Below the pieces are notes generated by a model. The model saw nothing but the letters and a program-made list of their open reading frames with translations, searched no databases and was not told the origin of the DNA. From NCBI GenBank assembly GCA_003222555.1, contig QHWL01000096.1:1-10089 (forward strand): DNA of 10,089 nucleotides, written 5' to 3'. Of the stretch, positions 2,903 to 10,089 are shown in pieces. This DNA is from Acidobacteriota bacterium (GTDB taxonomy: Bacteria > Acidobacteriota > Vicinamibacteria > Vicinamibacterales > CAVVIG01). Position 1 is the first letter of the stretch. Every line of letters begins with the position of its first letter. Made by a program: the position numbers and the translations under genes.

Positions 2903-2917
2903 TGAGGCGGAGCCTCA
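2903..2917. terminator. Hairpin between convergent genes
   Basis: TGAGGC-GGA-GCCTCA forms a six-pair stem with a three-base loop. It lies in the 41-base gap between the stops of the cupin gene and the lyase-like gene and includes the latter's stop codon. Its place suggests a bidirectional terminator, but it has no T-run and the stem is short. Confidence 0.3.
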
Positions 2918-3913
2918 CTGCCGTTCCGGAGCGGAGGCCCTGGGAAGGTTGTACTTCCGTGAGCGCGTGTTGAGCTCTTCGACTTGCTCGACTTCGTCCG
3001 AGATCTCCTTACTGAGAGCGCCCTTTTGCGCTTCTGTCATCCGTCCTGTGGTTTTCAATTCAGTCAAGGCTTTGTCGACAGCGCCCAACGCGATGTTCAC
3101 CATGCTCGCGGACTGTCCCACGGTGATTCGGGCTGCCTTCATGGCGGCCGCAGTTGCCGGCAAGTTCGCGTTGCCGATCACCGCCATGAGCGGTTTTTTG
3201 ATCATGTCGGCCGCCTTGATGTAGTCCTGCGCGGTCCGCAATCCGATCCACACGGCGTCGGCACCGGCTTCGGCGTAAGCGGTCGCCCGATCCAGCATCT
3301 CTGTATACGAACCGTTCGGAGTCGGAGCAAGGCAGCGCGCGATAAAAACCATGTCCGTACGCGCGTCGGCTGCGGCGTGGATATTGTCGATCATCCGGGC
3401 CTTGGAAACGACGCCCGGAACGGAATAGGCAGTGGCGCGGTTGAGCGGCATCCGGTCATCGAAGGCCGCGCAGCCGATGCCGGCTCTCTCAGCCTGTTTC
3501 GCGAAGCGGTAGACGTTCAGGGGCGTGGCGCCAAAATCGTCCACATCCGCGAGGATTGGAATATCCACGTTCGCGGCGATGACACTGTTGTACTCGATGA
3601 TCTCGGACACGGTGACGACCGCTTGGTCTGGCAGCGCGACCAATTCCTGATTGGGGGCGCTGCTGCCAACAAACGCGGCTGTGAACCCGTGAACTTGGAT
3701 CAGACGAGCGGTGAGCACATCGTAAGCGCCGGGGCATATCAGCGGGTCCGGCGCATTCATCAATGCGCGAAAGCGTGCACCCATGGTCCTCGGTGCCGGG
3801 CGCGTCTGCGACGCAGGTGCAGCCACGGCCAGCGGCTGGGCAGCCGCCATCAATCCGGACGCTGCCAGTCCAGCGACTTGGACAAACTCGCGTCTATTCG
3901 TTTTTCTAGCCAT
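2915..3913 (-). CDS. Tat-exported isocitrate lyase/PEP mutase-like protein
   Basis: The product has 332 residues. It begins with a twin-arginine signal (NRREFVQVAGLAASG, residues 6-20, then a weakly hydrophobic stretch to about 32), so it is likely exported folded, whereas this superfamily normally works in the cytosol. Residues 46-290 follow the ICL/PEP mutase barrel: PLICPGAYDVLTARL (57-71), a variant of the metal-binding loop (ADVDDFGA, 122-129, against the usual ADADTGYG), FDDR (151-154, against LEDQ) and IARCLA (191-196, against IARTDA). The isocitrate lyase KKCGH signature is absent. Asp123, Asp125 and Arg193 remain, so a carbon-carbon or carbon-phosphorus lyase with unusual substrate, or an inactive relative, are both possible. 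The start at 3913 has GAGGAG a few bases upstream and a sigma-70-like promoter about 75 bases further back. Confidence 0.82.
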   Translation of the reverse strand: MARKTNRREFVQVAGLAASGLMAAAQPLAVAAPASQTRPAPRTMGARFRALMNAPDPLICPGAYDVLTARLIQVHGFTAAFVGSSAPNQELVALPDQAVVTVSEIIEYNSVIAANVDIPILADVDDFGATPLNVYRFAKQAERAGIGCAAFDDRMPLNRATAYSVPGVVSKARMIDNIHAAADARTDMVFIARCLAPTPNGSYTEMLDRATAYAEAGADAVWIGLRTAQDYIKAADMIKKPLMAVIGNANLPATAAAMKAARITVGQSASMVNIALGAVDKALTELKTTGRMTEAQKGALSKEISDEVEQVEELNTRSRKYNLPRASAPERQ

Positions 3914-4168
3914 GGTCGCTCCTCGAGATTTGCGGTGATCCCGTCATACCGGCATTTTCCAGATGACGCCTGGTTCGAACGGAATATAGCGATTTTCCGA
4001 GGCTCGCTCAAGCTCACGCTCACTCGGGTGGCTCCCCCGCCAGATACGCTGCGTGATCGAACCACAACCCACGTGGCTCAAACAGGCCAGTCCTTCAGTG
4101 GTGATCAGACGAACATCGAGGCCAAATGGGTAGTGTTGCACGCGGAGAACCCACGTGACCAACTACAC
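3914..4168. other. Intergenic region between exosortase operon and lyase-like gene
   Basis: No gene is visible in these 255 bases. It contains the probable promoter of the lyase-like gene (3983-4011) and a 10-base direct repeat AACCCACGTG at 4066-4075 and 4148-4157. No clear intrinsic terminator follows the 87-residue membrane protein gene. Confidence 0.45.
3983..4011 (-). promoter_or_regulatory. Sigma-70-type promoter of the lyase-like gene
   Basis: On the minus strand TTGAGC (4011-4006) and TATATT (3988-3983) are separated by exactly 17 bases. They match the TTGACA and TATAAT consensus at 4/6 and 5/6 positions. Transcription would start near 3976, giving a leader of about 60 bases before the ATG at 3913. 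This suggests the lyase-like gene is transcribed independently of the exosortase operon upstream. Confidence 0.5.
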
Positions 4169-4432
4169 CTACGGCAGCCTGCAGCACCGTCGCGACGCTC
4201 CGGCCGCACGGCAGGCACTGGCGAGTGCGTGCGCAATGGTGTGGACCGTGCACGCGAGAATGATTGCGACCGGAGGGACGACCAGCACGGCCAGCGCGTG
4301 CTCCACGAACGCGCCGGACTGCGCCGCGCCGTTTGCGAGCGGAACGGCGAGCGTGACGGCGTAGTATGAAGCAAGCGGCAGAGCCGTGCGACGGAACGCG
4401 TGAGCAACCCTCGTCCGTGGCACACGGTTCAT
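4169..4432 (-). CDS. Small two-helix membrane protein coupled to exosortase K
   Basis: The 87-residue product has a basic N-terminus (MNRVPRTRVAHAFRR), a first transmembrane segment at about 16-36 (LPLASYYAVTLAVPLANG), a second at about 44-68 (VEHALAVLVVPPVAIILACT) and a short tail with four cysteines overall (61, 74, 83, 84). Its ATG (4432-4430) overlaps the TGA of the exosortase (4431-4429) as ATGA, so translation is very probably coupled. Most codons end in G or C as in the neighbouring genes, which argues for a real gene. I do not recognise a family. Position and topology suggest a membrane partner of the exosortase, for example an accessory subunit, or a very small sorting substrate, although it has no PEP-like motif followed by a helix and basic end. 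Confidence 0.68.
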   Translation of the reverse strand: MNRVPRTRVAHAFRRTALPLASYYAVTLAVPLANGAAQSGAFVEHALAVLVVPPVAIILACTVHTIAHALASACRAAGASRRCCRLP

Positions 4433-4956
4433 GGTGTTTGCCCAACCGGCGCCACCCTCCGGTTGAGTCGTTGCGCCAGCTCGTAGAGCAGCACCAGGCC
4501 CCCGAAATACACCGCGATCCCTTCGAAGCGATGGACATCAGCCGCACTGAATGCTGACAGCGCGACCGGATGGGCGGCGAGCCACATCGCGATCGCAATC
4601 CGTACGGCGTTGACCGGCACAGCCGCCGAATAGCTCGCCAGCAGGCTCACACCCAGAACGCGCGCCGCCGATAGTCCGGATCCGACACGATGAAGGAGGG
4701 CGAGCATCAGCATGCCGAACGCGGCGACCATGAAGTTGATCCCCGCGCATGATTTCTCGATCAGGAACAGGCGATCGCGCGAGAAATATCCTTCTTGCGG
4801 CTGCAACGTGAAGGTTGTGTGGGTCATGGCGCCAGCCAACTGCGCCGTCGGACTCAATATCCACTCCAGATCGTCCGCGCGCGCGTCGGCGTAATGTCGC
4901 TTTATCGCGAAGGCGATGAGCACCGCCGCGGCCAATACCCACAGTTTCATCTTCAT
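4429..4956 (-). CDS. xrtK: Exosortase K (membrane transpeptidase/protease)
   Basis: This encodes a 175-residue polytopic membrane protein of the exosortase/archaeosortase family. Such enzymes recognise a C-terminal sorting signal on exported proteins, cut it, and probably transfer the protein to a cell-surface anchor. The catalytic triad is visible: Cys70 in EKSCAGINFMV, Arg119 in PVNAVRIAIAMWL and His142 in DVHRFEGIAVYFGG. Hydrophobic segments lie at about 4-18, 70-88, 97-128 and 145-162. The compact core, without the extra N-terminal helices of XrtA, fits the short exosortase K class; the exact subclass is from memory. The ATG at 4956 overlaps the TGA of the VIT/VWA gene as ATGA (a second ATG lies two codons later), and GGGGG lies some 8-12 bases upstream. 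The adjacent VIT/VWA protein, with a PEP-type tail, is the obvious substrate. Confidence 0.85.
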   Translation of the reverse strand: MKMKLWVLAAAVLIAFAIKRHYADARADDLEWILSPTAQLAGAMTHTTFTLQPQEGYFSRDRLFLIEKSCAGINFMVAAFGMLMLALLHRVGSGLSAARVLGVSLLASYSAAVPVNAVRIAIAMWLAAHPVALSAFSAADVHRFEGIAVYFGGLVLLYELAQRLNRRVAPVGQTP

Positions 4957-6968
4957 GCGACGACCCCCGATCGCCGGCGCCGCGCGCGCAGCAGGCTCAC
5001 ACCACCGAACCATGCCACAGCGATTGCGCACACCCACACAATGTCTGGTTCGGGACCGTTGGTGACGCCGACCGCGAGATCGGACACCCCCGCTGGCAAA
5101 GGCAGCGGCTGGTCGACGTCCTCGGCATCCTCTGCTGTGCGCCGCACGATCTCCTGCACCGCAACGAACGACGTGTACCGCGTGAGCAAGCGATAGGTCA
5201 GCCCCAGCGAGGTGATCTCGGCGATGCGTTCCTCGCTTGGAGCCCTGGGCCCGAAATCTGACAGGTCTGCGATGCGGGTTCGTGCCCAGAGCTGCCGAAG
5301 CGCACCGTGACGTGCGTCGGCGCTCGCAGGCGAGACCGCAATCGATGTCCGGTACACTCCGCGACCGCTCTTGCCCGAGATTTCGATCGATCCAGCTGCG
5401 CTGCCTCGCCACTTCCCGAAGACGACAATCGGGCGGCGGGCGAACAGGTCCGGGACGTTCTTCGGCTCGACATCGTAGGTGTCCAGTCCGCTGAACGTCA
5501 CGTCGATGCCGGTGAGCACGGGCGTGTCGATGTACCGCCGGAACCGCTTTGCCGCCTCCGCCGCGCTGGAGGGTTCTGTGACGATGAACGGCTCCCCGAG
5601 CCCCGCCCGAGCAATGCCCTCGATGAGGAACCGGTTGACGCTGGTGCCAATACCAAAGGCGAAGAAATTGACACCATCCAGTTGCGCGCGGACGTAGTCG
5701 AACACGTCCGATTCCGCCTCGATATACCCGTCGGTCACCAGGACAATGCTGCGCGACGCCTCGCCTTGACGCGGGACGGCGACCGCCCGTTCGAGCGCCG
5801 CCCGCAGCCGCGTCCCACCCCCGCCCTGCTTCCGCCCGATGAACTGGAGCGCCCGTATGAGATTGGGACGCGTCGCCGGAACAGAGACTCGCGAGAACGT
5901 GTCGGAGCCGTCGGCAAACACGACGATGTTGAACGTGTCGGCGGGTCGAAGGACGTTCGCGAGGTCGGCCATCAACTTCTTCGCCGTGTCCAGCGGAAAG
6001 CCGTTCATCGATCCCGATACGTCGAGCACGAAGATGTACTCGCGCGGCGGCACCTCGTCGGGCCGAACCACCTGCGGCGGTTGCGCCATGAGCAGGAAGA
6101 AGTTTTCGCTCCGGCCCTGGTACAGCAGCACTCCGGAGGCAATCTCCTGGCCAGCCAATCGGTAGCGAAGGATGAAGTCGCGATTGCCCGAGAATCGATC
6201 GGACTCGGCAAGTGTCACGTCAGATCGCCCCGGGCCGGTCGAGCGGACAACCAGCTGATGGGAGGGTGAGGCGAGCTCCTGCAGCGGCACGCCGGTCGAC
6301 ACCACGCCCGAAAGGTGGAACTCGCTGCGCGGCGCCTCGCCCTGGCGAGTGTACGGAGCCGCGACGAACTCGTCGCCCGGCGACGCCTGACTTTCGCGCT
6401 GCTCGGAGTAGCGCGGTCCGACAACGGTCGGGTACACGAACTCGTACACACCGTCGGTCGGCACGAGCAACTCCGTATATTTGAGCTCCACCGAGATCGT
6501 GTCGCCTGGAAGCACGTTGGCGACCTTCATCGAGAACACGTTGGGGCGGCTCTGTTCCAACAGCGATGCGCTCTTCCCGTCGCGCTTGGCGGCTTCAAAT
6601 TCACGTGCGGCCTGCTTGCGCTCCCTGATTCTGGCCACGGTGCGCACATCGCCGACGGTCATCGTCATCCCGTACACAGCCGCCCGCGTGGACGCAGGAA
6701 AGATGTAGCGGGCATGAATGGGCCGCGTTCCACCGTTCTCGTACACCTGCCGGACGGTCACGTCCGCAATCACGCCGGCGATGGCGACGTCAACTCGCGT
6801 GTCCTTCAACGGCAGACGATCGATGGAGGGATCGCTGCCTTCGACGAAGAAGTATGGCGAGAGCGTCTTGTCAACGGGCACTCGATCGGCCTGCGCCGCG
6901 GCCTCGAGCGGCGCGAGCAAGGCACAGACGGCAAGAACGAAAACGGTCCCGCGAGTTGAGAGTTTCAT
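4953..6968 (-). CDS. VIT/VWA surface protein with PEP-CTERM-like sorting tail
   Basis: The product has 671 residues. Residues 1-27 are a Sec signal peptide (AAAQA cleavage region). A VIT domain covers about 48-185, with TVRQVYENGG and the RERKQAAREFEAAKRDGK helix characteristic of inter-alpha-trypsin/vault proteins, followed by NVFSMKVANVLPGD. A von Willebrand A domain covers about 308-480 and keeps the full MIDAS metal site: Asp316-x-Ser-x-Ser320, Thr386 in GGGGTRLR, and Asp413 in LVTDG. The region ending LTRYTSFVAVQE (about 595-606) is the usual VIT-VWA C-terminal motif. The end is a tripartite sorting signal: GPEP (638-641), a helix at about 643-660 and RARRRR (661-666). The protein is therefore predicted to be exported and processed by the exosortase encoded next. 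VIT/VWA proteins usually mediate adhesion or protein binding. The start at 6968 gives the signal peptide; no Shine-Dalgarno sequence precedes it. Confidence 0.88.
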   Translation of the reverse strand: MKLSTRGTVFVLAVCALLAPLEAAAQADRVPVDKTLSPYFFVEGSDPSIDRLPLKDTRVDVAIAGVIADVTVRQVYENGGTRPIHARYIFPASTRAAVYGMTMTVGDVRTVARIRERKQAAREFEAAKRDGKSASLLEQSRPNVFSMKVANVLPGDTISVELKYTELLVPTDGVYEFVYPTVVGPRYSEQRESQASPGDEFVAAPYTRQGEAPRSEFHLSGVVSTGVPLQELASPSHQLVVRSTGPGRSDVTLAESDRFSGNRDFILRYRLAGQEIASGVLLYQGRSENFFLLMAQPPQVVRPDEVPPREYIFVLDVSGSMNGFPLDTAKKLMADLANVLRPADTFNIVVFADGSDTFSRVSVPATRPNLIRALQFIGRKQGGGGTRLRAALERAVAVPRQGEASRSIVLVTDGYIEAESDVFDYVRAQLDGVNFFAFGIGTSVNRFLIEGIARAGLGEPFIVTEPSSAAEAAKRFRRYIDTPVLTGIDVTFSGLDTYDVEPKNVPDLFARRPIVVFGKWRGSAAGSIEISGKSGRGVYRTSIAVSPASADARHGALRQLWARTRIADLSDFGPRAPSEERIAEITSLGLTYRLLTRYTSFVAVQEIVRRTAEDAEDVDQPLPLPAGVSDLAVGVTNGPEPDIVWVCAIAVAWFGGVSLLRARRRRSGVVA

Positions 6969-6982
6969 GCGGATCACGGAGA

Positions 6983-6997
6983 GCAACGCCGCTGCCG
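6983..6997 (-). promoter_or_regulatory. Candidate sigma-54 promoter of the VIT-exosortase operon
   Basis: The minus strand reads CGGCAG-CGGCG-TTGC followed by T. Compared with the sigma-54 consensus TGGCAC-N5-TTGC(A/T), it matches GGCA and all of TTGC, with the required GG-N10-GC spacing. Transcription would begin near 6971, only about three bases before the ATG at 6968, giving an almost leaderless mRNA; this would fit the lack of a Shine-Dalgarno sequence. The palindrome at 7117-7132 lies about 150 bases upstream, a usual distance for an activator site. The short leader is unusual and lowers confidence. Confidence 0.45.
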
Positions 6998-7096
6998 TCC
7001 GCCGCCCCCCAACGCGATCGGACCGCAACGTATTGCGCGTGCAAGTGATGCACGGATTTGAGGATCCTGTGGCTGCGAATGGATCGGGAAGCATGC

Positions 7097-7112
7097 GTGT
7101 TCGTGCGACCAC
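7097..7112. promoter_or_regulatory. Degenerate second activator site before the VIT gene
   Basis: GTGTTCGTGCGACCAC matches the palindrome consensus GTGTCC-N4-GGACAC at 9 of 12 defined positions. It begins 20 bases (about two helical turns) from the perfect copy at 7117, which would place a second dimer on the same DNA face. It may be a weak site or chance. Confidence 0.25.
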
Positions 7113-7116
7113 GGCC

Positions 7117-7132
7117 GTGTCCAGCCGGACAC
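7117..7132. promoter_or_regulatory. Palindromic activator site before the VIT gene
   Basis: GTGTCCAGCCGGACAC is a perfect inverted repeat (six-base arms, four-base spacer). It shares the form GTGTC(C/T)-N4-GGACAC with the two sites upstream of the TPR gene and occurs only in intergenic DNA here. Its centre lies about 150 bases upstream of the expected transcription start of the VIT-exosortase operon. It is probably an upstream activating sequence for the neighbouring NtrC-type regulator. Confidence 0.65.
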
Positions 7133-7311
7133 GCCTCCCTGGATACCTTCAGGCGCGCCTCGAGCATCAGGCGAGAGGCGATGAGTGGTGAGTTCGGGAG
7201 GTGGGATGCGAACCAGTGTGCAGGCGTGGCGAGCCGCCGCGATCTCGAGCCCTGGCGCGGTCGGGAGCCGCTCACGTGCCGACACAATCCAGGACCCGAG
7301 ACCGAGACTGC

Positions 7312-8268
7312 CTAATTGTTCGGCGTCTTCCCAGCACCGCCCTTCGCTGTTTTCTCGACGACGCCGTTCGCGGGCGAGCCGACGTCTAACGGTTCTTCGG
7401 CATTCCCCTGGACAGATTCGACACGCGCCAAGTTCCGCTTCGCCTTGTCGTAACCGGGGTCGGCGGTCAGTGCGGCCTTGTACGTCGCGGCCGCCGCCTT
7501 GAAGCGCCCGGTGTGCTCCAGCGCCATGCCCAGGTTGTTGTGAAATGCCGGCACGTCCTGCCGCAACTCCACGGCCTTGGCGAGCAGCGGCAGCGCCTCG
7601 TCGGCGCGCTTCGTCTCGAGGAGCAGGAATCCGAGGTTGTTCATCGACCATGCGTCGAGCTCGTTCAGCTCGATCGCGCGACGATACGCATCCATGGCCT
7701 CGCCGGTCTTTCCCTGCGCGACGTAGGTACGGCCAATCAGCCGATACACCTCGGTGGATTCGGGATCGATCTCGGCCGCACGCGTGAGCCCGCCGAGCGC
7801 ATCGTCATATCGCTTCTGATCGATGAAGACGCGGCTCAGGTTCACGAGGCTCTTGACGTGATGCGGGTCGATGCTCAACGCCTTCTCGAAAGCGTGCTCG
7901 GACCTCGCGAGATCGCCGCTCTTCCACGCTGACAGGCCGAGCATGTAGTGTCCCCACGGGTTGGCGGGGCGCTGCCCGGTGTAGTGCTCGAACATCACTG
8001 TCGCGTCGCTGTACTTCCTGGCCTGGTATGCCGCCTGGCCATCGGCGAATGACACCGGGCCGGTAATCGTGGGCGTCGCGCCTGACACGGATCCTTCGTC
8101 GCCGGCCCGCTTCAACGGCAATGATTCGCCTCGTGTCGCGACCGGTTTCAGTTGCTCGGCGTTTAGCGACTCCACCTTTGCCTGTGAAGTTTCGCCGCGG
8201 TAGGAACAGCCGACGGCCGCGAATGCCGCCAGGAGCAGCACCGCCGTGACGTGTCGTGTGGGTTTCAT
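7312..8268 (-). CDS. TPR-repeat lipoprotein
   Basis: The 318-residue product starts with a lipoprotein signal: MKPTRHV, a hydrophobic stretch and AVGC, with the lipidated residue probably Cys21. A low-complexity linker (about 22-68) leads to six consecutive tetratricopeptide repeats at about 70-273, recognisable by the alternating pattern such as AFEKALSIDPHH, AAEIDPESTEVYRLIGRTY and AIELNELDAWSMNNLGFLL, with a partial seventh repeat after 274. The last 30 residues are polar and probably disordered. TPR lipoproteins act as scaffolds at the membrane; in this setting it may help assemble or present sorted proteins, which is inference. The ATG at 8268 follows GGAGGGAG by a few bases and gives the signal peptide, so I prefer it to the ATG 11 codons upstream. 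A sigma-54-type promoter and two activator palindromes lie upstream. Confidence 0.85.
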   Translation of the reverse strand: MKPTRHVTAVLLLAAFAAVGCSYRGETSQAKVESLNAEQLKPVATRGESLPLKRAGDEGSVSGATPTITGPVSFADGQAAYQARKYSDATVMFEHYTGQRPANPWGHYMLGLSAWKSGDLARSEHAFEKALSIDPHHVKSLVNLSRVFIDQKRYDDALGGLTRAAEIDPESTEVYRLIGRTYVAQGKTGEAMDAYRRAIELNELDAWSMNNLGFLLLETKRADEALPLLAKAVELRQDVPAFHNNLGMALEHTGRFKAAAATYKAALTADPGYDKAKRNLARVESVQGNAEEPLDVGSPANGVVEKTAKGGAGKTPNN

Positions 8269-8330
8269 CTGTCTCCCTCCTTGGTTCGCCGACCGCTTCA
8301 CATGCGGCCGAGCGTTCGTTGGCGTTCAGG

Positions 8331-8345
8331 GCAAGCCTGACGCCA
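8331..8345 (-). promoter_or_regulatory. Sigma-54-type promoter of the TPR lipoprotein gene
   Basis: The minus strand reads TGGCGT-CAGGC-TTGC. It has the invariant GG and GC ten bases apart, TGGC of the -24 box and the full TTGC of the -12 box; only the last two bases of the -24 box (GT for AC) differ from the consensus. The expected start near 8319 gives a leader of about 50 bases with a strong ribosome-binding site. The two palindromes lie about 130 and 160 bases upstream, where bacterial enhancer-binding proteins usually act. Confidence 0.62.
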
Positions 8346-8440
8346 CGGTGAGCGGCAGATGACAGGTGCGTCTAACTGACCGAAGCAGAGCGAGTTGGCG
8401 AATCGTGAGAACGGGCCCGGGGGAGTCGTTCGCGGCGGTC

Positions 8441-8456
8441 GTGTCTCCGTGGACAC
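8441..8456. promoter_or_regulatory. Palindromic activator site 1 before the TPR gene
   Basis: GTGTCTCCGTGGACAC is an inverted repeat with five perfect base pairs and one mismatch in the sixth. It shares the consensus of the sites at 8474-8489 and 7117-7132. It begins 33 bases, about three helical turns, from the next copy, so two bound dimers would sit on the same side of the DNA. Confidence 0.62.
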
Positions 8457-8473
8457 CGGCTGCGGAGCTGCAG

Positions 8474-8489
8474 GTGTCCCGGGGGACAC
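8474..8489. promoter_or_regulatory. Palindromic activator site 2 before the TPR gene
   Basis: GTGTCCCGGGGGACAC is a near-complete palindrome (seven-base arms, two-base centre) of the same class. It lies just beyond the stop codon of the activator gene, at 8515. Paired sites of this kind are typical for cooperative binding of NtrC-family activators. Confidence 0.65.
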
Positions 8490-8514
8490 GGGGAGCTCCT
8501 CCGCCCCGTGCGGG

Positions 8515-9900
8515 TTACGCGTCCCGGTGCATACCCTTGTTCAATCCGTGTCGACGCATGATTTTCAACAGGCTGGAGTGGTCCGCAAGGCCGAGCGCCT
8601 CGGCGGTCCGAGTGACGTGCCAATCGTGTTTGTCGAGCGCGCCAAGCACGATGTGCCGTTCGGCCTGCGCCTTCAGCGCCTTGAGTGTTCCCGGAGGGGC
8701 GGTCGCGTCAGCGGCCTCGTCCCTTTCGTCGCCACCCCGAATCTCCGGTGGAACATCAGCCGCGCCGATGATGGCGGCATCTGTCGCCATCATCATGCGC
8801 TCCAGACAGTTTCGCAGCTCGCGAACGTTGTTCCTCCGCCACTCGTAGGCGGCGAGCAGCGCGACCGCGTCCGGCGTGATCGTCTTCGACCGCATGCCAA
8901 GATGCGAAGCGATCGACCGAAGCGAATGATCGACAAGCGCTGGAACGTCGGACAACCGCTCGCGCAACGGCGGGACCCGCAGCATGTGGACGTTGAGGCG
9001 ATAGTAGAGATCCTGTCGAAAGCGGCCGGCCTCGACCTCGCGCTCAAGATCCCGGTTCGTGGCCGCGACGACGCGCGCGGTGACCTGGATGGCCCGGTCA
9101 CCGCCGACTCGCACCACCTTCCGTTCTTCGAGCACGCGAAGCAGCTTGGCCTGTGCCGGCAGCGGCAACTCTCCGACCTCGTCGAGGAACAGCGTTCCTG
9201 CGCCTGCGTTCTCGAACGCGCCCCGGCGCAGGCGATCCGCACCCGTGAACGCGCCGCGCTCGTGGCCGAACAGCTCGCTCTCGACGAGCTGCTCGGGCAG
9301 CGCCGCGCTGTTCACGGCGACCAGCGGGGTTTTTGCGCCGGGTCCTCGTCGATGCAGCTCGCGCGCAACCAGTTCCTTGCCCGTCCCGCTCTCGCCCACG
9401 ATCAGGACACCGCTCGGAATCGGCGCGACGCGCGCGATCGCATCACGCAGCGACCGCATCGGGGCGCTGTCGCCGATGAGCGGCGTCTCACCGTCGAACC
9501 GGGACCGCAGCGTTCGAAGCTCGGTCACCAGCCGCCCGCGTGAGACCGCGTTCTGGATCTCCTGAACGACGCGCTCAATCGGCTCCGCCTTGTCGACGAA
9601 CCCGTACGCGCCGAGCCGCACGGCCTGGATGCAGCGGTCGTAACTGCCAGTGCCGGTGTAGACGATGACCGGTGTGTCGATGCCGCGCTGCTGTAGCCGC
9701 CGCAGGACCTCGAAGCCATCGGTCCCTGGCATCTCGAGATCGAGGACGACGCAATCGATCGGCTCCCGGGCCAGGATGTCGAGCGCCTCGTTACCGCCAG
9801 CGGCGACGATCGTGTGGTAGCTGCCGACCCGTTTCAGGTCGTAGGCGTATTGCTCGGCCATCGCCGGCACGTCATCGACCACGAGCACCTGCGTCGTCAT
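8515..9900 (-). CDS. NtrC-family sigma-54 response regulator
   Basis: The 461-residue product has three domains. The receiver (about 3-120) keeps all key residues: Asp9/Asp10, phosphoacceptor Asp54 in VVLDLEMPG, Thr82 and Lys104. The AAA+ sigma-54 activation domain (about 139-370) has Walker A GESGTGKE (169-176), the sigma-54-contacting GAFTGA loop (216-221), Walker B TLFLDE (236-241) and the arginine-finger region DLYYRLNV. The usual WPGNVREL motif is WRRNNVREL (354-362), one residue longer. A C-terminal Fis-type helix-turn-helix (about 412-455, [20 protein letters not shown]) binds DNA. It should activate sigma-54 promoters when phosphorylated. Its ATG overlaps the TGA of the histidine kinase as ATGA. 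The palindromes beside its stop codon and upstream of the VIT gene are its likely targets. The receiver does not look like the PrsR regulator known from XrtA systems. Confidence 0.93.
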
Positions 9901-10089
9901 GTGCGCTTCGGACCTCGCCTGAGCGACGCCGAAGGCCCGTCGGCTGGAATGCCGATGATGATGCGCGTTCCGCAGCCAGGCGCACTGTCGACGCCGAGCG
10001 TGCCGTGAAGGTCCATCACCAGTCGTCGAACGATGGAGAGCCCCAGACCCGCGCCGCCCTCCTTCGTCGTGTAGAAGTCGTCGAAGATC
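9897..10089 (-). CDS. Sensor histidine kinase, C-terminal fragment
   Basis: Only the last 63 residues are in the window. They contain the end of the HATPase_c ATP-binding domain: the F-box-like IFDDFYTTKEGG and the G2 box GAGLGLSIVRRL, then DLHGTLGVDSAPGCGTRIIIGIP, followed by a short basic tail. The sequence is typical of NtrB-type kinases. The TGA stop (9899-9897) overlaps the ATG of the response regulator, so the two are translated together and form a cognate pair. The signal sensed cannot be told because the N-terminal part lies beyond the window edge. Confidence 0.92.
   Translation of the reverse strand, partial: IFDDFYTTKEGGAGLGLSIVRRLVMDLHGTLGVDSAPGCGTRIIIGIPADGPSASLRRGPKRT

Follow-up and report, generated by a model that had tools for sequence, protein, structure and literature searches.

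The XrtA/PEP-CTERM (EpsH) system with PrsK, PrsR and PrsT (PMC1569441) combines an exosortase and an E-P type tail with a histidine kinase, a sigma-54 response regulator and a TPR protein. In the class GN ('proteobacterial dedicated') sortase system (TIGR03784, TIGR03785, TIGR03787 and TIGR03788), one VIT/VWA target adjoins the sorting enzyme. Bacteroidota pair the exosortase XrtN with a VIT-domain target. For the exosortase K family (XrtK, TIGR04287) we found no paper in the open-licence PubMed Central literature, subscription papers lying outside the search. Here we describe an exosortase K locus on contig QHWL01000096.1 of an Acidobacteriota bacterium (GCA_003222555.1). The window analysed, 10,089 nucleotides, is the whole of this contig (G000:C345) of a draft genome (G000) of 784 contigs and 4.79 Mb that is 82% complete. 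No XrtN-type model was present among the matches of the window's VWA and XrtK proteins at E <= 0.1, a comparison not aimed at XrtN.

An earlier note on this DNA had named a kinase, an NtrC-type activator, a TPR lipoprotein, a VIT/VWA protein with a PEP-type tail, a minimal exosortase and a tiny membrane protein as one cassette, and knew of no description of such an exosortase K unit with its own activator and a single dedicated substrate. The six genes do lie in that order and in one direction, all on the - strand from 10089 to 4169. On sequence evidence, we think it likely that they encode a dedicated sorting unit in which exosortase K processes one VIT/VWA protein, the enzyme being made as two chains under sigma-54 and two-component control. 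Judged by gene content, the unit is the same kind of arrangement as XrtA/PEP-CTERM, but its regulator and TPR protein are different ones, it has one substrate rather than many, and the genome has a single exosortase-family match. It shares with the exosortase K family the Cys, Arg and His motifs, a score above the cut-off and the VIT/VWA neighbour, but differs in its proposed two chains and in a probable sigma-54 operon to which a kinase, a regulator and a TPR lipoprotein of its own belong.

The proposed sigma-54 operon and its sensor block

The distribution of exosortase K is patchy. In a phylum-wide sample of 396 genomes, 10 had a TIGR04287 match above the cut-off, as did 2 of 193 from the class, 1 of 27 from the family (the window's genome is among all three samples) and 18 of 119 from one family richer in xrtK. 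Together the samples gave 25 genomes, most of them drafts, and all of their neighbourhoods were taken. The second member from the class, genome G492, is represented by locus L002, whose record is titled a metagenome-assembled genome (MAG); L047 is, by length and coordinates, the same contig and was not counted a second time. Five matches below the cut-off (G130, G161, G145, G309 and G118; loci L027-L031) had no VWA or XrtK match by tblastn at E <= 1e-3 and were left uncounted.

The kinase gene (9897-10089, -) is truncated by the contig end, leaving the HATPase_c portion. It seems to continue on contig G000:C82, where a kinase gene that runs into the contig end corresponds to residues 1-450 of the L002 orthologue and has an SBP_bac_5-like lipoprotein gene before it. 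A match to this solute-binding protein (SBP)-like lipoprotein stands beside the kinase in all seven loci compared (L124, L002, L093, L094, L095, L097 and L098), some of which are contig fragments. At L097 (G004) the kinase match is interrupted, either by a gap or by a change of frame. The response regulator (8515-9900, -) has a REC domain (PF00072, 82.6 bits) and a sigma-54 AAA+ domain (PF00158, 221.2 bits), both above their cut-offs, with GAFTGA at residue 216 and a weak match to a Fis-type helix-turn-helix (HTH_8, 18.3 bits; cut-off 22). The TPR lipoprotein (7312-8268, -) has a lipobox, AAVGC, recognised by eye. The regulator and the TPR protein score below the cut-offs of their counterparts in the XrtA system. 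The regulator scores 341.4 bits against PrsR (TIGR02915; cut-off 502.6), which bears out the suggestion that this activator is a different one, and the TPR protein 90.5 bits against PrsT (TIGR02917; cut-off 312.2). Of the kinase, the window contains the last 63 residues, which give 26 bits against PrsK (TIGR02916; cut-off 300).

Between the regulator and TPR genes lie an exact palindrome, GTGTCC-N4-GGACAC (8474-8489), which is a probable activator site, and a second copy with one mismatch 33 bp from it (8441-8456). A third, exact copy (7117-7132) separates the TPR and VWA genes and has no counterpart in L002 at <= 1 mismatch. The shared palindromes of the earlier note are rare, since the two exact sites in this operon are the only two in the genome; at <= 1 mismatch there are nine sites, three of them in the operon, against two for a reversed control pattern. 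G492 has two exact palindromes, one between its regulator and TPR genes, and 18 sites at <= 1 mismatch against 10 for the control; its other exact site (C18:6740) falls inside an open reading frame (ORF) and is probably there by chance. The regulator-TPR gap holds one or two palindromes with 0-2 mismatches, the pairs 33-35 bp apart, in each of the four genomes that preserve this gene order (the window, L002, L093 and L096).

The same four gaps contain TGGC-N6-CTTGC 57-62 nt before the TPR start codon. In the window this is the -24/-12 (sigma-54) element TGGCGTCAGGCTTGC (8331-8345, -), at 62 nt. By consensus alone such elements were not above chance, six being found at <= 2 mismatches where 10.5 were expected; the element is supported because its position is conserved in all four genomes and not because of its consensus. 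Another candidate, at 6997-6983 ahead of the VIT/VWA gene, was not counted: a transcript from it would begin only some 3 nt in front of the start codon, and by eye L002 has no counterpart. The conservation of palindromes and -24/-12 element upholds the proposal of the earlier note that they connect the regulator to the TPR-VWA-xrtK operon. The gene rpoN is present in both genomes searched, that of the window included. Elsewhere, a one-mismatch palindrome lies 157 bp before an OmpA-SBP-kinase-regulator run without xrtK (L095:16058-16073), possibly as an autoregulatory site, and two more lie 269 bp apart at G000:C153:3004 and 3273, for which no target gene is evident.

The kinase, regulator and TPR genes might nevertheless be unrelated neighbours of the sorting genes, with the palindromes serving another purpose. 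The block is absent from all 16 other xrtK loci that have at least 4 kb before the VWA gene (seven more have too little upstream sequence to judge), and the best match to any of its proteins in the other 23 loci, at L023, is 9 kb away with 26% identity (E 4.6e-15). All six genes occur together in the window and L002 only, so that the idea of a six-gene set conserved as the general exosortase K unit is not supported. Moreover, regulator orthologues (71-85% identity, the next listed having 46%) were found at E <= 1e-100 in six other genomes among the 193 of the class, and three of these, G103, G533 and G535 from one other family, have the kinase-regulator pair with no TIGR04287 match and no VWA match at E <= 1e-60. 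Gene order behind the regulator is readable in G103 only (L095), the contigs of G533 and G535 ending there. Since the pair occurs without xrtK in another family, it may be older than its link to xrtK. Against the view of chance neighbours stand the regulator-TPR order in four genomes (L096, in G004, reads regulator-TPR-VWA and L093, in G490, regulator-TPR before their contigs end), the palindromes and -24/-12 element in all four gaps and the placement of both exact palindromes of the genome in this operon. We regard chance neighbourhood as unlikely. Taken over the loci compared, the constant unit is the VIT/VWA gene with xrtK, and the kinase-regulator-TPR block appears as an addition of one lineage.

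Other regulatory genes are found beside this core. At L026 (G117) the VWA-xrtK pair is followed by same-strand CreB-/CreC-type genes, above their cut-offs, while the gene before it encodes a BtsR/LytR-like regulator that scores below the cut-offs for that type. The core thus has different regulators beside it here, a point that would also fit unrelated neighbours. At L060 an ORF with a TPR match (E 0.002) is found two genes ahead of the VWA gene.

The VIT/VWA protein and its tail

The VIT/VWA gene (4953-6968, -) stands directly upstream of xrtK and in the same direction in all 25 loci. The spacing varies between -17 and +237 nt, and 12 of the 25 pairs overlap by 4 nt; in the window the VWA stop and the xrtK start share ATGA (4953-4956, -). 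The protein has a signal-like N-terminus, judged by eye, and a MIDAS-like DVSGS at residue 316, and its sequence relatives in the PDB include PARP4 and the inter-alpha-trypsin inhibitor heavy chains. It ends in the PEP-type tail that the earlier note had recognised, G-P-E-P-D-I followed by a hydrophobic segment and RARRRR (4956-5057, -). A C-terminus of E-P-[ED], hydrophobic stretch and basic residues is found at all 25 loci, and among the best 120 of 8000 scored VWA proteins, the window's own included, G-x-E-P is kept throughout and E-P-[ED] in 104. Some of the close relatives of the VWA and XrtK proteins bear the name Vicinamibacterales, which makes this group of Acidobacteriota the probable source.

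With a 35-residue tail profile, each of the 20 genomes searched among the 25 gave one match at E <= 3.3e-8, the VWA neighbour of xrtK. The profile was built from VWA tails, so recovering them is no test; the test is the absence of other matches of weight. The next-best match anywhere had E = 0.004 and covered profile positions 10-30, the hydrophobic part. The proposal of a single dedicated substrate agrees with this count of one tail per enzyme. The VIT/VWA protein could instead stay in the inner membrane while exosortase K acts on something else, given that such a tail could anchor a protein by itself and that weak tail matches exist. However, a second convincing tail match was found in none of the 20 genomes, the VWA-xrtK adjacency is without exception, and those relatives without xrtK that could be read to their ends (L113, L114 and LPxTG-like ones) have other C-termini. 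An unprocessed VIT/VWA protein is therefore, in our estimate, quite improbable.

Exosortase K encoded in one ORF and in two

The minimal exosortase of the earlier note is exosortase K, with 108.8 bits against TIGR04287 (cut-off 55), and is the only exosortase-family match in the genome at E <= 0.1. The model, of 163 positions, covers the N-terminal part of the enzyme only. The Cys motif is present at all 25 loci and the Arg and His motifs at 24, L061 being cut at 85 amino acids; in the window these are Cys70, Arg119 and His142. In both the window and L002 xrtK encodes 175 amino acids (4429-4956, -, in the window), and a gene of 87 or 76 amino acids follows. The window's 87-residue product, with two hydrophobic segments (4169-4432, -), is the tiny membrane protein of the earlier note, and its gene overlaps xrtK by an ATGA (4429-4432, -). 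In contrast, at all 21 of the other loci where no contig end interrupts xrtK, a single ORF of 228-365 amino acids covers both parts; the upper values include uncertain starts, L025 is partly masked in its C-terminal segment and was counted by ORF length only, and L048 and L061, which run off their contigs, were left out.

The 87-residue protein matches the C-terminal part of single-ORF XrtK in 19 of the 23 other loci (tblastn, E <= 0.05); of the remaining four, L048 and L061 run off the contig, L025 is masked there and L026 aligns visibly. The best 120 of 2929 exosortase K family matches in the database are 234-318 amino acids long, and 110 of them contain a [YW][YW]...P segment like that of the 87-residue protein. 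Among the best 120 of 1329 relatives of the window's xrtK piece, 116 are short (169-210 amino acids) and four, P0292, P0298, P0318 and P0329, are fused, holding by eye the C-terminal part in one chain. This homology identifies the small membrane protein as the C-terminal portion of exosortase K; its gene is as the earlier note had it, but its separate identity falls away. An independent accessory factor with a chance likeness to longer exosortase K C-termini would agree with the separate start codon and ORF that the small protein has in L002 as in the window, and with the N-terminal coverage of TIGR04287, and is very unlikely in view of the 19 matches and the four fused close relatives. That the split is a sequencing or assembly error is scarcely credible, for while both full examples come from draft genomes, one of them a MAG, the ATGA-overlap split is shared by two genomes at 58% protein identity and 116 of the best 120 relatives are short.

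In a tree of the catalytic part, built from 24 of the 25 loci (L061 left out) and 59 of 240 XrtK proteins with no root inferred, the split rows cluster. The labels require four changes, a number reached by none of 500 shufflings, and fused rows are nested among split ones. One split followed by about three returns to the fused form would be a simple reading of this unrooted tree. Between the window and L002, the ratio of nonsynonymous to synonymous substitution rates (dN/dS) comes to roughly 0.35 in the catalytic piece and 0.48 in the small one, which indicates that both are constrained, the small piece less so.

Several observations weigh against the proposed unit. Support in the tree is weak at many forks, its sample is partial, and L025 and L026 form long branches. 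Among five genes compared with L002, the one for the small piece shows the fastest evolution (dN 0.41, dS 0.84). A short xrtK with the second piece following it was read in two genomes, those of the window and L002; the 116 short database proteins were compared as single proteins. An AlphaFold model of a fused relative has middling quality (mean predicted local distance difference test score, pLDDT, 72.4; predicted template-modelling score, pTM, 0.54), and a fold search with it gave no match of weight; neither result shows how the two pieces would pack. The VIT/VWA protein is assigned as substrate from adjacency and tail alone, and three weak tail matches (E 0.17-0.53) extend over the profile's E-P positions.

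Relatives beside a sortase, and a proposed mechanism

Relatives of the VIT/VWA protein at E <= 1e-60 occur in 11 of the 193 class genomes. Two of these have xrtK, one (G004) is cut inside the VWA gene, and three, at 49-53% identity, lack xrtK. The two of these that could be read to their ends, L113:1510-3843 (-) and L114:5703-7958 (+), have no E-P tail and a different C-terminal region, and their genomes have no TIGR04287 match. The remaining five genomes (29-37% identity) have a class GN sortase on the same contig. In L116 (G442) and L117 (G439), a VIT/VWA protein with an LPQG-type tail stands beside an OmpR-type two-component system and a class GN sortase, which gives 222 and 206 bits against TIGR03784 (cut-off 158.25). 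With 788 bits the L116 target is above the TIGR03788 cut-off, and the regulators and kinases of both loci are below the TIGR03787 and TIGR03785 cut-offs. This class GN set is thus seen in a class of Acidobacteriota although its families are named after Proteobacteria. The window's VWA protein scores 392.4 bits against TIGR03788, below the cut-off of 551.65, the match ending at 594 of 629 with the tail outside it.

The exosortase K unit resembles the class GN system in having one VIT/VWA target beside its sorting enzyme, and resembles L116 and L117 also in having a two-component system, but the class GN enzyme is an unrelated sortase, its tail is of the LPQGAT/LPQGGT type and its regulator is OmpR-like. 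The class GN sortase is above its cut-off in six of the 193 class genomes, neither xrtK genome among them, six and two being numbers too small to argue that the two enzymes exclude each other. G492 has one TIGR03784 match, at 81.8 bits below the cut-off, and G000, which is incomplete, has none at E <= 1e-10. We give even odds to a history in which a family of VIT/VWA surface proteins moved between two unrelated transpeptidase families, class GN sortase and exosortase K, as its C-terminal tail was exchanged. In the same history, one lineage would have split its exosortase into two separately translated membrane chains that rebuild one active enzyme, some members later becoming fused again, and the unit would have come under sigma-54 and a three-part sensor.

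Downstream of the operon, no intrinsic terminator was found in 3900-4460. The rest of the window encodes a PEP-mutase/methylisocitrate-lyase-like protein (2915-3913, -), a protein without family match (2157-2873, +), an NHL-repeat protein (650-1762, -) and the start of a major facilitator superfamily (MFS) transporter (1-447, -), for which no link to the operon was seen.

If the genes act as we propose, a signal would reach the membrane kinase, probably by way of the SBP-like lipoprotein whose gene lies next to it, and the kinase would phosphorylate the NtrC-type regulator, which would bind the palindromes about 105-150 bp upstream of the -12 element and, with the sigma-54 promoter, switch on TPR-VWA-xrtK(N)-xrtK(C). 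The VIT/VWA protein would be exported, with its G-P-E-P-D-hydrophobic-Arg tail anchoring it in the inner membrane, and exosortase K, as its private enzyme, would process it at this C-terminal tail, presumably by cleavage. Tandem translation through the ATGA overlap would yield the 175-residue catalytic piece and the 87-residue two-helix piece, and the two chains would be expected to reassemble in the membrane. We infer a surface location for the VIT/VWA protein and a role for the TPR protein.

In many exosortase systems the enzyme has numerous substrates and is difficult to study for that reason. A pair of one enzyme and one substrate, in which the enzyme is naturally split, would offer a small and testable system. 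It opens the questions of which piece binds the tail, what job the C-terminal helices have and to which partner the substrate is joined. If sortase and exosortase have indeed been exchanged on one protein family, the substrate, and not the enzyme, would be the constant part of units of this type.

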